Shown here: piece by piece, positions 35,250-37,460 of the stretch | Layout: every line of letters starts with the position of its first letter | Position numbering within the stretch: position 1 is the stretch's first letter | Assembly: GCF_001428025.1 (NCBI RefSeq) | Contig: NZ_LMSC01000009.1 | Location: forward strand, 359,843 to 423,842 | Length of the DNA stretch: 64,000 bases | DNA from: Phycicoccus sp. Soil748 | GTDB lineage: Bacteria; Actinomycetota; Actinomycetes; Actinomycetales; Dermatophilaceae | Direction: 5' to 3' | The notes under the pieces: generated by a model | Databases searched by the model: none | What the model saw: only the letters and a program-made list of their open reading frames with translations | Told to the model about the DNA's origin: nothing | Translations under genes and position numbers: made by a program

Positions 35250-35903
35250 GTGTTCATGGACTCAGACCGCAAGCACAGGGCCGTCCGCATCACCGTGTGG
35301 GTGGCCGTCCTCGGGCTGCTCCTGGGGGTGCTGTCCTCCCTCGTGACCGCGCTCGGGGCCGACGCCCACGCGTCGCTGCGGTCGGTCTCGCCTGCTGACG
35401 GCTCCACGGTGCGCACGGCGCCTGCCGCGGTGGTGCTGACGTTCGACGAGCCCATCAGCTCCAGCTTCGCCACCGTCACCGTGACCGGCCCCGGAGGTGA
35501 CGCCGGCAACGGGCGCGCGAAGGTGGACGGCACCACGGTCAGCCTCGACCTCGACGCGGGGCTGCCTGACGGCACCTACAAGGTCGCTTTCCGCGTCGTC
35601 AGCGAGGACGGCCACCCGGTGTCGGACACGAGCACCTTCCGGCTGGCCGCAGCAGCACCCACCTCGAGCGCTCCCTCCACGTCTTCGGGCACCGACTCGC
35701 CCGCGCCGACCATGACGCCCCTCCCCCAGTCCTCGAGCTCCTCAGCCAGCGTCTCGTCCAGCGAAAAGGCCTCCGCAGCAACGGCATCCGGGACCGGCAA
35801 CGGCACCGGGCTGCGCCTCGGGCTGGCTGTCGGGGTCGGCGCCCTGGCCGTCGCGGCGGGCACCGCGCTGGTCGCCGCAGCCCGCCGACGGAGGCAGTCG
35901 TGA
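35250..35903 (+). CDS. CopC domain-containing secreted/membrane-anchored protein
   Basis: A 217-residue protein. An N-terminal signal sequence (RITVWVAVLGLLLGVLSSLVTALGADAHA) is followed by a CopC copper-binding domain: mature end HASLRSVSPADGSTVRTAP, FDEPISSSF, and RVVSEDGHPVSDTSTFRL with the second His. A Ser/Thr/Pro-rich linker of about 55 residues leads to a C-terminal transmembrane helix (GLRLGLAVGVGALAVAAGTALVAA) and an Arg-rich stop-transfer end. It probably displays the domain outside the membrane. No CopD or DUF1775 partner is adjacent. Start may be the GTG or the ATG two codons on. Confidence 0.88.
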   Translation: MFMDSDRKHRAVRITVWVAVLGLLLGVLSSLVTALGADAHASLRSVSPADGSTVRTAPAAVVLTFDEPISSSFATVTVTGPGGDAGNGRAKVDGTTVSLDLDAGLPDGTYKVAFRVVSEDGHPVSDTSTFRLAAAAPTSSAPSTSSGTDSPAPTMTPLPQSSSSSASVSSSEKASAATASGTGNGTGLRLGLAVGVGALAVAAGTALVAAARRRRQS

Positions 35904-35960
35904 GCGTCAGCGGAGCCGATTTCACGTCGCCGCCATCGTCCTGCTAATGTCTCTCCTCGC

Positions 35961-36036
<76 letters not shown>

Positions 36037-36042
36037 CCCACC

Positions 36043-36080
36043 ACGAAGGGCCGGTCACACCACTGTGGCCGGCCCTTCGT
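36043..36080 (+). terminator. terminator after tRNA-Lys
   Basis: Stem ACGAAGGGCCGGTCACA / TGTGGCCGGCCCTTCGT (one T-G pair) around CCAC. It isolates the tRNA from the cysteine leader region downstream. Confidence 0.7.
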
Positions 36081-36195
36081 GCGTCCTGCCCCGGACATCG
36101 GCATGGGGCCGGGTGTCGGGACCGGCGTCGGGCCTGCGCTTCTCGGAGGGCGAGACGCCACGGGTACCTCGTGGACGACGGCCGGGGCCGCGTGC

Positions 36196-36207
36196 TGCAC
36201 TGGAGCC
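36196..36207 (+). promoter_or_regulatory. putative leaderless promoter of the poly-cysteine leader peptide
   Basis: TGCACT (36196-36201) is six bases before the ATG at 36208, the spacing seen at other leaderless starts. The region 36081-36195 shows no other convincing element. Confidence 0.4.
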
Positions 36208-36288
36208 ATGTCTTCGACCACCGCGGTGATGCGCGCGCACATGGCTCCCATGTGCGGCGACGTCATGCGGTGTTGCTGCTGCGCCTGA
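36208..36288 (+). CDS. poly-cysteine leader peptide (putative cysteine-responsive attenuator)
   Basis: A 26-codon ORF: MSSTTAVMRAHMAPMC then GDVMRCCCCA and TGA. Four consecutive Cys codons (TGT TGC TGC TGC) precede the penultimate Ala. No Shine-Dalgarno is present. In mycobacteria leaderless short ORFs with poly-Cys tracts are known to sense cysteine by ribosome pausing and to control downstream sulfur genes. Here the next full gene is cysteine dioxygenase, so the context fits exactly. A 9-bp hairpin lies in the ORF just before the Cys tract. Too short for usual gene calling. Confidence 0.75.
   Translation: MSSTTAVMRAHMAPMCGDVMRCCCCA
36235..36256 (+). promoter_or_regulatory. hairpin inside the poly-Cys leader ORF
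   Basis: CGCACATGG (36236-36244) and CCATGTGCG (36248-36256) form a perfect 9-bp stem with loop CTC, ending in the first Cys codon. The segment CATGGCTCC (36240-36248) could instead pair with the GGAG and CCATG of the next ORF (36337-36350). Confidence 0.45.
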
Positions 36289-36347
36289 CCTCGTCCCGCA
36301 CCAGCCCCGACGCCTCGAGCGCGTCCCTCGAACCCCGGAGACATCCC

Positions 36348-36536
36348 ATGGCCACCAGCCACACGGCACACCGCCGCATCCACCTCGACCTGTTCCTGGT
36401 CCAGGGGTCGGTCTGTCCGCGAATGCGCAGCCTCCACGCGCCATCTCGCACAACACAGACACCGACGAACCAGGAGCAGGACCATGACCATCACGACCAC
36501 CGCCGGCACCCCCGGCGTCAACCGCTTCACCCGTAG
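36348..36536 (+). CDS. second upstream ORF, putative leader peptide overlapping cysteine dioxygenase
   Basis: A 62-codon ORF beginning MATSHTAHRRIHLDLFLVQG and continuing SVCPRMRSLH. The ATG has a good Shine-Dalgarno (CCGGAG, seven bases before). The RRxHxDLxxV...C pattern resembles short streptomycete products annotated as putative leader peptides near sulfur genes (recalled, not searched). The frame passes through the ribosome binding site of cysteine dioxygenase and stops 53 bases inside it, so its translation could control access to that gene. The His/Asp-rich tail may be incidental. Confidence 0.5.
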   Translation: MATSHTAHRRIHLDLFLVQGSVCPRMRSLHAPSRTTQTPTNQEQDHDHHDHRRHPRRQPLHP

Positions 36537-36969
36537 CCAGCTGCTCCGCACGGCGCAGCTCTTCGCCACCGACCCCGACCTCCACCGCCACGTCGACCTC
36601 GGCGCCACCGAGCGCACCTGGCACCGCCTCGACGCCACCGAGCACCTCGAGATCTGGCTCATCGCGTGGCCGGTCGGCACGTCGACCGGCTGGCACGACC
36701 ACCTGCGCTCCGAGGGCGCCTTCGTCACCGTCGAGGGCACACTGGCCGAGCACAGCTGGTCCGGCGGCCGGGCGCACGAGAGGCTGCTGCCCCGCGGCGA
36801 GGGCCGGTCGTTCGGCAGCCACCACGTGCACGACGTCGCCAACCCCGGTGACGTCCCCGCCCTGTCGGTGCACGTCTACTCCCCCGCGCTGCGCGGCCTG
36901 ACCCGCTACGCGGTCCTCGACGGGACGCTGAAGGTGACCGGCGTCGAGCAGGCCGGTGAGCAGTGGTGA
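36484..36969 (+). CDS. cysteine dioxygenase
   Basis: Cupin-fold non-haem iron enzyme of 161 residues that oxidises cysteine to cysteine sulfinate. Iron ligands: His71 and His73 in GWHDH, and a third His in the HHVHDVAN stretch near 116. The cupin strand GAFVTVEGTLAEHSW is clear. Start ATG has the ribosome binding site CAGGAGCAGG. Two leader ORFs precede it, and a rhodanese gene overlaps its end (GTGA), forming a cysteine-catabolic operon. Confidence 0.92.
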   Translation: MTITTTAGTPGVNRFTRSQLLRTAQLFATDPDLHRHVDLGATERTWHRLDATEHLEIWLIAWPVGTSTGWHDHLRSEGAFVTVEGTLAEHSWSGGRAHERLLPRGEGRSFGSHHVHDVANPGDVPALSVHVYSPALRGLTRYAVLDGTLKVTGVEQAGEQW

Positions 36970-37460
36970 CCGCCGTGAGCGCCGCGCCCACGATCCAGAC
37001 GCACTGGGAGACACGGCTGTTCAGCGGTCCGGTGACGCGGGACCCGGGCCGCGGGCGGCTGGCACCCACCTACGCCGGGATCGACGACCAGCTGGCCGAC
37101 GCCCGCAGCCGGCTGCGCCGGGTGAGCGTGCGGGCGGCATACCAGGAGGTGCTCTACGGCCGAGCGGTCCTGGTGGACATCCGTCCCGCGGCACAGCGGG
37201 CGACCGAGGGCGAGGTCGCGGCGCACCTGCACCCGCTCGTCGTCGAGCGCAACGTGCTGGAGTGGCGCTTCGACCCACGCCACGAGTCCCGGCTGCCCGT
37301 CGCCGGATTCGCGACACGGGTGCTCGTGCTGTGCCAGGAGGGCTACACCTCGTCACTGGCCGCGGACGCCCTGCTGCGGCTCGGGGTCACCCGCGCCACC
37401 GACGTCGAGGGCGGGTTCCGGGCCTGGCGCGAGGCCGGGCTCCCGACCGCTCAGAGGTAG
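36966..37460 (+). CDS. rhodanese-like domain protein
   Basis: A 164-residue single-domain sulfurtransferase. The Asp-Arg pair VLVDIRPAAQR begins the domain and the active-site loop is CQEGYTSS with Cys123; FRAWREAGLP ends the fold. It probably handles sulfane sulfur arising from cysteine breakdown. GTG at 36966 overlaps the cysteine dioxygenase stop by 4 bp; another GTG lies one codon earlier. The 3' end overlaps the converging GroES-like gene by 10 bp. Confidence 0.88.
   Translation: MTAVSAAPTIQTHWETRLFSGPVTRDPGRGRLAPTYAGIDDQLADARSRLRRVSVRAAYQEVLYGRAVLVDIRPAAQRATEGEVAAHLHPLVVERNVLEWRFDPRHESRLPVAGFATRVLVLCQEGYTSSLAADALLRLGVTRATDVEGGFRAWREAGLPTAQR

Follow-up and report, generated by a model that had tools for sequence, protein, structure and literature searches.

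Why should a leader of a kind that responds to cysteine stand before a gene whose product is annotated as degrading it? The window analysed here, a stretch of 64,000 nucleotides from Phycicoccus sp. Soil748, contains a short open reading frame with a run of cysteine codons (uORF1) ahead of genes for a cysteine dioxygenase family protein (CDO) and a rhodanese-like protein. Polycysteine leaderless ORFs are established cysteine-responsive attenuators in M. smegmatis (accessible parts of PMC9094748, PMC9031893 and PMC13236596), and the principle was foreshadowed in Shell 2015 (PMC4633059) and Seliverstov 2005 (PMC1262725), to judge from portions of both articles. The original prediction carried this principle over to the present locus. 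By comparing the leader among related genomes and folding its RNA, we arrive at a two-stage, ribosome-operated translational attenuator for CDO and rhodanese that would be opened by a shortage of charged Cys-tRNA. The whole of this reading is put forward tentatively, as having somewhat less than an even chance; the ribosome-gated two-stage design taken alone, which is drawn from sequence comparison and modelling, is probable, and shortage as its sign, once the design is granted, is modestly favoured by the model.

The sequence bears out an ORF of 26 codons, starting with ATG and encoding MSSTTAVMRAHMAPMCGDVMRCCCCA, with four consecutive Cys codons (TGT TGC TGC TGC); these lie near the stop, as had been noticed, yet not immediately before it, one Ala codon (GCC) preceding the TGA at 36286-36288. 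The ORF was also rightly said to have no usable Shine-Dalgarno sequence (SD): the nearest GGAG (36202-36205) is unfit for the purpose because, at only 2 nt from the ATG, it is too close, and it is absent from some of the aligned relatives. The reading frame is also open further upstream, from a GTG at 36079 (69 aa); the conserved start is the one in Table 1, an ATG in 14 of 15 loci and a GTG in the other. The claim of a hexamer at leaderless spacing held up as well, TGCACT occupying -12 to -7 with its first and last T kept in 22 of 23 homologous loci (in L015 the hexamer is one base out of register); 18 of the 23 also carry GTGGA 36-38 nt upstream of that codon, and the promoter-like GTGGA/T....T spacing is conserved in 18-22 of them. 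Since a sigma-70 consensus scan gave no match, the promoter is proposed from conservation, and transcription would begin at the uORF1 AUG or close to it. Directly 5' of this promoter lies a tRNA gene (35961-36033; Rfam RF00005, 69 bits), whose anticodon loop CTCTTAAT suggests tRNA-Lys; it was the only one of three matches in an Rfam scan of 35900-37000 to exceed the gathering score.

Table 1. Features of the leader and of the genes that follow it, in window positions
Feature	Position	Strand	Evidence or remark
-35-like block GTGGAC	36171..36176	+	37 nt 5' of uORF1 start; sequence conservation
-10-like hexamer TGCACT	36196..36201	+	-12 to -7, leaderless spacing
uORF1, leaderless-type poly-Cys leader ORF	36208..36288	+	sequence, comparison of relatives
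Candidate anti-SD of stage 1, AUGUCUUCG, first three uORF1 codons	36208..36216	+	predicted pairing with 36336-36344
Four Cys codons of uORF1	36271..36282	+	third is Cys in 15/15 loci
Conserved CCCGCACCAGC, 3' of uORF1 stop	36295..36305	+	predicted pairing with Cys codons
SD of uORF2 (CGGAGAC) and helix arm CGGAGACAU	36336..36344	+	conservation, folding
uORF2, core RRIHLDLFLVQGSVC	36348..36536	+	profile matches; coding-like changes
Candidate anti-SD of stage 2, inside uORF2	36389..36400	+	predicted pairing with 36469-36480; weak recoding test
First Cys codon (TGT) of uORF2	36414..36416	+	Cys invariant in 11 aligned rows
SD of CDO (CAGGAG)	36471..36476	+	CAGGAG in 15/15 loci
Cysteine dioxygenase family protein (CDO)	36484..36969	+	Pfam CDO_I, 66.9 bits, cut-off 23
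Rhodanese-like protein	36966..37460	+	Pfam Rhodanese, 26.7 bits, cut-off 22.2; first start in ORF list GTG 36963

CDO and rhodanese had been taken as the next full genes, and they are the next gene-sized ORFs, but a second, conserved leader ORF (uORF2) lies between them and uORF1. In an alignment of 14 sequences CDO keeps HxH, further His, Arg44 and Tyr132, residues consistent with its annotation as a CDO; relatives of it were found in 29 of the 58 genomes searched.

Taken by itself, a run of four Cys codons is weak evidence for a leader, for the 3.97-Mb genome has 29 four-TGY-codon sites (75 for the reversed pattern), and at 3 of the other 28 a stop follows within 6 codons. We regard uORF1 as real because it is conserved across relatives, and this conservation rules out a chance Cys run, although the run alone is not rare. 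Alignment across related genomes finds the ORF, with its Cys run kept, before CDO in 11 of 11 genomes of its own genus (the Pedococcus group; 26 codons in ten and 27 in one, with a GTG start in one) and in 4 of the 175 other family genomes searched, again each time before CDO. The profile search covered 186 family genomes; outside the genus it matched G175, G176 and G174 (E 5e-11 to 1.1e-5) and G203 (E 0.010), and CDO lies downstream in every one of these and of the own-genus matches. A match in G019 (E 0.009), in a locus without a CDO match, was taken as chance; a phylum sample of 396 genomes gave three matches at E <= 0.01, namely two from the own genus and G019. Together, uORF1 and uORF2 precede CDO in 15 genomes of four genera. 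Comparison thus bears out the predicted poly-Cys leaderless-type ORF before CDO and rhodanese, with the qualification that not every locus has four Cys (CRCC, RCCP and CRCQ occur as variants).

The two ORFs are conserved in different ways. Despite substitutions, uORF1 retains its start, its frame, its stop and most of its Cys codons, and the only indel is one in-frame extra codon; sequences from the own genus, compared in pairs, differ 273, 209 and 133 times at codon positions 1, 2 and 3, and codons with a single change comprise 65 synonymous and 223 non-synonymous cases. These substitutions are not coding-like, which argues against uORF1 acting through its peptide and rules out a conserved small protein; on this pattern, uORF1 is kept as RNA, with its frame and Cys codons, and not as peptide. 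A near-palindrome, CACATGG-CTC-CCATGTG, forms codons 11-16 of uORF1 (36240-36256), is kept in most relatives and is paired in the predicted fold of the window leader; it may explain the kept H-M-x-x-M-C residues. In uORF2, by comparison, the 20 codons up to the first Cys differ at positions 1, 2 and 3 by 118, 76 and 228 (own genus), with 189 synonymous and 119 non-synonymous single-change codons, a pattern by which uORF2 is conserved as a peptide, with the motif RIHLDLxLxxGxVC.

uORF2 has an SD of its own and extends 53 nt into CDO, overlapping the CDO start; this overlap is not universal, as in G174 uORF2 stops before CDO. Its profile matches 21 of the 186 family genomes at E < 1e-3, always directly before CDO, and in 6 of the 21 uORF1 was undetected. 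In L054-L056 (genus g62), L050 and L051, uORF2-type leaders stand alone before CDO, and the poly-Cys first stage may have been gained late or lost. The uORF2 of the window does not match the NCBIfam model NF042934 ('putative leader peptide', cut-off 27 bits), and homologues at the equivalent place in G016 (28.6 bits) and G174 (28.3 bits) do pass that cut-off; at the level of sequence, uORF2 resembles this family. After its first Cys codon (window 36417-36452) the octamer CGAATGYG is strongly kept, CGA making up 4% of Arg codons; in several relatives it faces CRCATTC, by eye a putative small hairpin with compensating changes.

Knoellia-type genomes carry a related single ORF, MSSTAAxRxxPVMPAAVMCCRCCR, before CDO. 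Its profile matches 8 of the 9 genus g18 genomes among the 186 (E <= 1.8e-9), and CDO follows in 8 of 8 and rhodanese in 7 of 8 of these loci; weak matches in G095 (8.2e-5) and G104 (0.0017), at loci without CDO, were rejected.

The original prediction had stalled ribosomes free a downstream ribosome-binding site. That such a site is hidden by structure involving the ORF is what folding predicts, but the partner of uORF1 is the SD of uORF2, not that of CDO. In RNA ending 40 nt past the start of uORF2, all 15 tandem loci, which are mutually related and so not independent, show pairing of the 9 leading nt of uORF1 with the 30 nt that precede uORF2, at 0.66-0.95 against a mean of 0.23 in a synonymous-codon null; for 14 of the 15, 10 or fewer of 200 recodings equal the natural sequence. 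When the leader is folded in full, mean exposure of the uORF2 SD is 0.10, where the null gives about 0.43; 13 of 15 loci have no more than 2 recodings in 100 that hide it as well. Its partner in this longer RNA is the uORF1 start in 13 of 15; in L018 the pairing reaches only 0.40, and in L059 the SD pairs elsewhere. Codon 2 of uORF1 is TCT in 14 of 15 loci, a codon that accounts for 1.6% of Ser codons in 34 window ORFs. The helix persists through base changes (UCUCCC in L019; GGAAGAC in L017 and L052), and in L016 the first pair is G-C for A-U and the helix is interrupted. Other stretches of the neighbourhood pair as well in 6.5% of cases on average over the 15 loci. In Knoellia the 5' end is AUGUCGUCG in most loci and GACGAC precedes the SD in 7 of 8; own-type pairings (-10.95 and -11.06 kcal/mol) are stronger than cross-type ones (-8.27 and -9.31), 22% of other stretches pair as well, and the recoding test was passed by only 1 of the 8 loci. 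On these models, structure of uORF1 appears to hide the next ribosome-binding site, that of uORF2.

A second helix is predicted between uORF2 and CDO. In 12 of 15 loci the CDO SD finds its partner in uORF2 codons that lie 18-24 nt ahead of the last base of the first Cys codon, the exceptions being L012 (shifted), L058 (nearer the Cys codon) and L059 (downstream). Recoding gives a weak test at this stage (mean rank 29 of 100), because the complement is already provided by Leu codons that belong to the conserved peptide, and the modelled pairing would be largely dictated by the uORF2 peptide. The window leader folds better than 100 of 100 shuffles (z -2.83), and its minimum-energy fold contains both SD-hiding helices. 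Folding also pairs CCCGCACCAGC with the Cys run of uORF1 at 0.32-0.65 per Cys-run base in 15 of 15 loci.

What a ribosome would do to these helices was modelled by masking a 30-nt footprint, a crude assumption under which the differences at the second stage are modest. Exposure of the uORF2 SD is 0.10 in the free leader, 0.19 with one ribosome at Cys22, 0.21 at Cys25 and 0.23 at the stop; two queued ribosomes give 0.13, three queued back to the start 0.44, and one at the start 0.45. On this model the SD of uORF2 would open with occupancy of the start codon, so that slowing at the Cys run would raise opening only by queuing. The stall at the Cys run, proposed earlier as the opener, might thus act through a queue back to the start; a single modelled ribosome at Cys does no better than one at the stop, the hiding segment being the start of uORF1. 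Exposure of the CDO SD rises from 0.13 (free) to 0.24 with a ribosome at the first uORF2 Cys codon and is 0.15 one codon later.

Put together, the preferred reading would run as follows. With no ribosome on the uORF1 start, its first nine bases (AUGUCUUCG) would pair with the SD of uORF2; with uORF2 unread, those of its codons that precede the first Cys codon would bind the SD of CDO. On the mask model, a stall at the Cys codons of uORF1 would back ribosomes up to the start codon, keep the first stage open and let uORF2 be read; a ribosome halted with the first uORF2 Cys codon in the A site would shield some of the anti-SD and free the SD of CDO. CDO would then be made when charged Cys-tRNA is short, uORF1 working through its RNA and its Cys codons.

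A leader before a cysteine-degrading gene, the feature singled out in the original prediction, is present here but is not peculiar to this locus, since Cys leaders precede CDO in many Actinobacteria. Among 80 named CDO loci, the best of at least 568, 52 have an HxDL..C leader within 650 nt upstream, including 41 of 42 Streptomyces loci, whose leaders are mostly close to MTDTCVRLWRRVHMDLVRYAGCVCRPSC (37.1 bits with NF042934); in 67 of these best 80, rhodanese lies 3' of CDO on the same strand (52 by a spacing rule, plus 15 abutting or overlapping CDO and counted from the list). For Streptomyces and its relatives, pairing between the CDO SD and the leader ORF averages 0.88, and 0.56 once the leader is recoded (values from 41 of 46 loci); in only 11 of the 41 do 5 or fewer of 50 recodings pair as well. 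Masking raises exposure of the CDO SD from 0.10 to 0.34 at the best of each leader's Cys codons and to 0.33 at the stop, figures taken over 37 rows that represent 36 loci (L155 twice), include three not from Streptomycetaceae and omit loci with no recognised SD or start. A regular-expression search for CDO leaders in Nocardioides and others found little. In Nocardioides sp. Root140 (L133), from about -275 to +20 relative to the CDO match start, MTSVLDIHGMRCGASVECCRFA is followed by an ORF with AYRRLHVDLLRTASDLC and then by CDO; the second ORF scores 23.1 bits with NF042934, under the cut-off of 27, and the pair is possibly an independent tandem of leaders. The S. lividans leader metL, before metNIQ, ends in CMCRRMCAF (PMC8079986, Table 4) and is described as methionine-dependent in the accessible part of that article; it might be a cysteine leader.

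That shortage should switch on an enzyme which degrades cysteine is metabolically odd, and the doubt that the original prediction cast on its own sign was justified. An opposite reading, which we consider unlikely though a serious rival, makes uORF2 and the Streptomyces CDO leaders arrest peptides that would stall at high free cysteine, with CDO induced by excess and uORF1 gating or damping the system. It would suit the conservation of uORF2 as a peptide, by the codon counts above, though its core has a single Cys before the RM(C) stretch; it would also suit the degradative annotation of CDO, and the modelled ribosome at the stop of Streptomyces leaders, which exposes the CDO SD as well as one at Cys. 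In the mask model of the window, however, a ribosome one codon past the first uORF2 Cys no longer opens the CDO SD; the family model to which uORF2 is likened is, as we understand it, named after leaders before other genes, where shortage control would presumably be expected; and we know of no cysteine-sensing arrest peptide. As for expression, the portion consulted of a study of Streptomyces sp. SCUT-3 gives 50.2- and 8.3-fold rises of cdo1 and cdo2 mRNA in feather medium (PMC7181669), which by analogy suggests induction by excess and so hints at the sign opposite to ours, while two cdo genes of S. shaoguanensis were up at 96 h together with sulfate reduction genes (PMC12763843, in part), an analogy ambiguous as to sign that is set against inverted control. 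Two different sensors might also act in series, the leaderless poly-Cys uORF1 reading Cys-tRNA charging and gating a uORF2 peptide that arrests on cysteine, with CDO made when cysteine is in excess; we think this quite unlikely, and if true it would mean an arrest peptide that senses cysteine and a member of the actinobacterial Cys-leader family put to inverted use.

Two further explanations were weighed. Leader translation might govern Rho-dependent termination in the C-rich conserved stretch that follows the uORF1 stop (36289-36310), as transcriptional attenuation has been proposed for mycobacterial cys leaders (accessible part of PMC1262725), and a consensus scan of 36030-37000 found no intrinsic terminator; yet the C-rich stretch is predicted to pair with the Cys codons, and the two SD-hiding helices would need another reason, so that we rate this account improbable. 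That the conserved element is simply an RNA or promoter sequence, with Cys run and frame incidental, would sit well with the substitutions in uORF1 and with the frequency of four-Cys runs in the genome; the persistence of start, frame, stop and most Cys codons, broken by nothing but one in-frame extra codon, and the differently built Cys leaders that precede CDO in Knoellia and Streptomyces make it very improbable.

If the preferred two-stage design is right, cysteine-leader control extends, in Streptomyces and in Dermatophilaceae-type genera, to a gene annotated as coding for a cysteine-degrading enzyme, and gains an arrangement in series, with the ribosome-binding site of the second leader ORF hidden by the first. 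Either the actinobacterial CDO-rhodanese pair would serve sulfur salvage and be induced by shortage, or such leaders can report excess. Among the titles and beginnings of abstracts listed from open-licence full texts, none concerns leader control of CDO or two Cys leaders in series. Canestrari 2020, a subscription paper, reportedly describes polycysteine leaderless ORFs as cysteine-responsive attenuators in M. smegmatis. The principle is known; what we think new is the target gene, together with the serial layout and the helix formed by the start codon.

Among known systems, the tryptophanase operon offers a parallel in the leader TnaC, which arrests on excess tryptophan: there too a leader peptide precedes a gene for breaking down the very amino acid that the leader would sense, but arrest on excess belongs to TnaC, and for uORF2 it is the coding-like conservation that bears on such an arrest. 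The families NF042934 (cis_reg_atten) and NF042936 (leader_Ms4527A) share the RxHxDL....C core with uORF2, whereas the uORF2 of the window continues past the motif, overlaps the CDO start and stands after another Cys leader. The candidate Cys leaders of Actinobacteria in the accessible part of Seliverstov 2005 (PMC1262725) are likewise short ORFs with Cys codons clustered close to the stop, and they lack an intrinsic terminator; they precede biosynthetic cys and cbs operons, in contrast to CDO and the predicted SD-hiding helices here. With the polycysteine attenuators of mycobacteria the present system shares a short leaderless-type ORF with terminal Cys codons, a cysteine-metabolism gene after it and, by prediction, RNA structure formed in part by the ORF that masks the following ribosome-binding site. 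The uORF1 of the window and that of L011 gave no match to NCBIfam NF042933 (leader_Ms5788A, cut-off 45 bits). What sets the system apart is that two leader ORFs stand in series, that the target is CDO, and that the hiding segment of uORF1 is its start codon with the next two codons; by analogy, it is most likely a variant of the mycobacterial attenuators.
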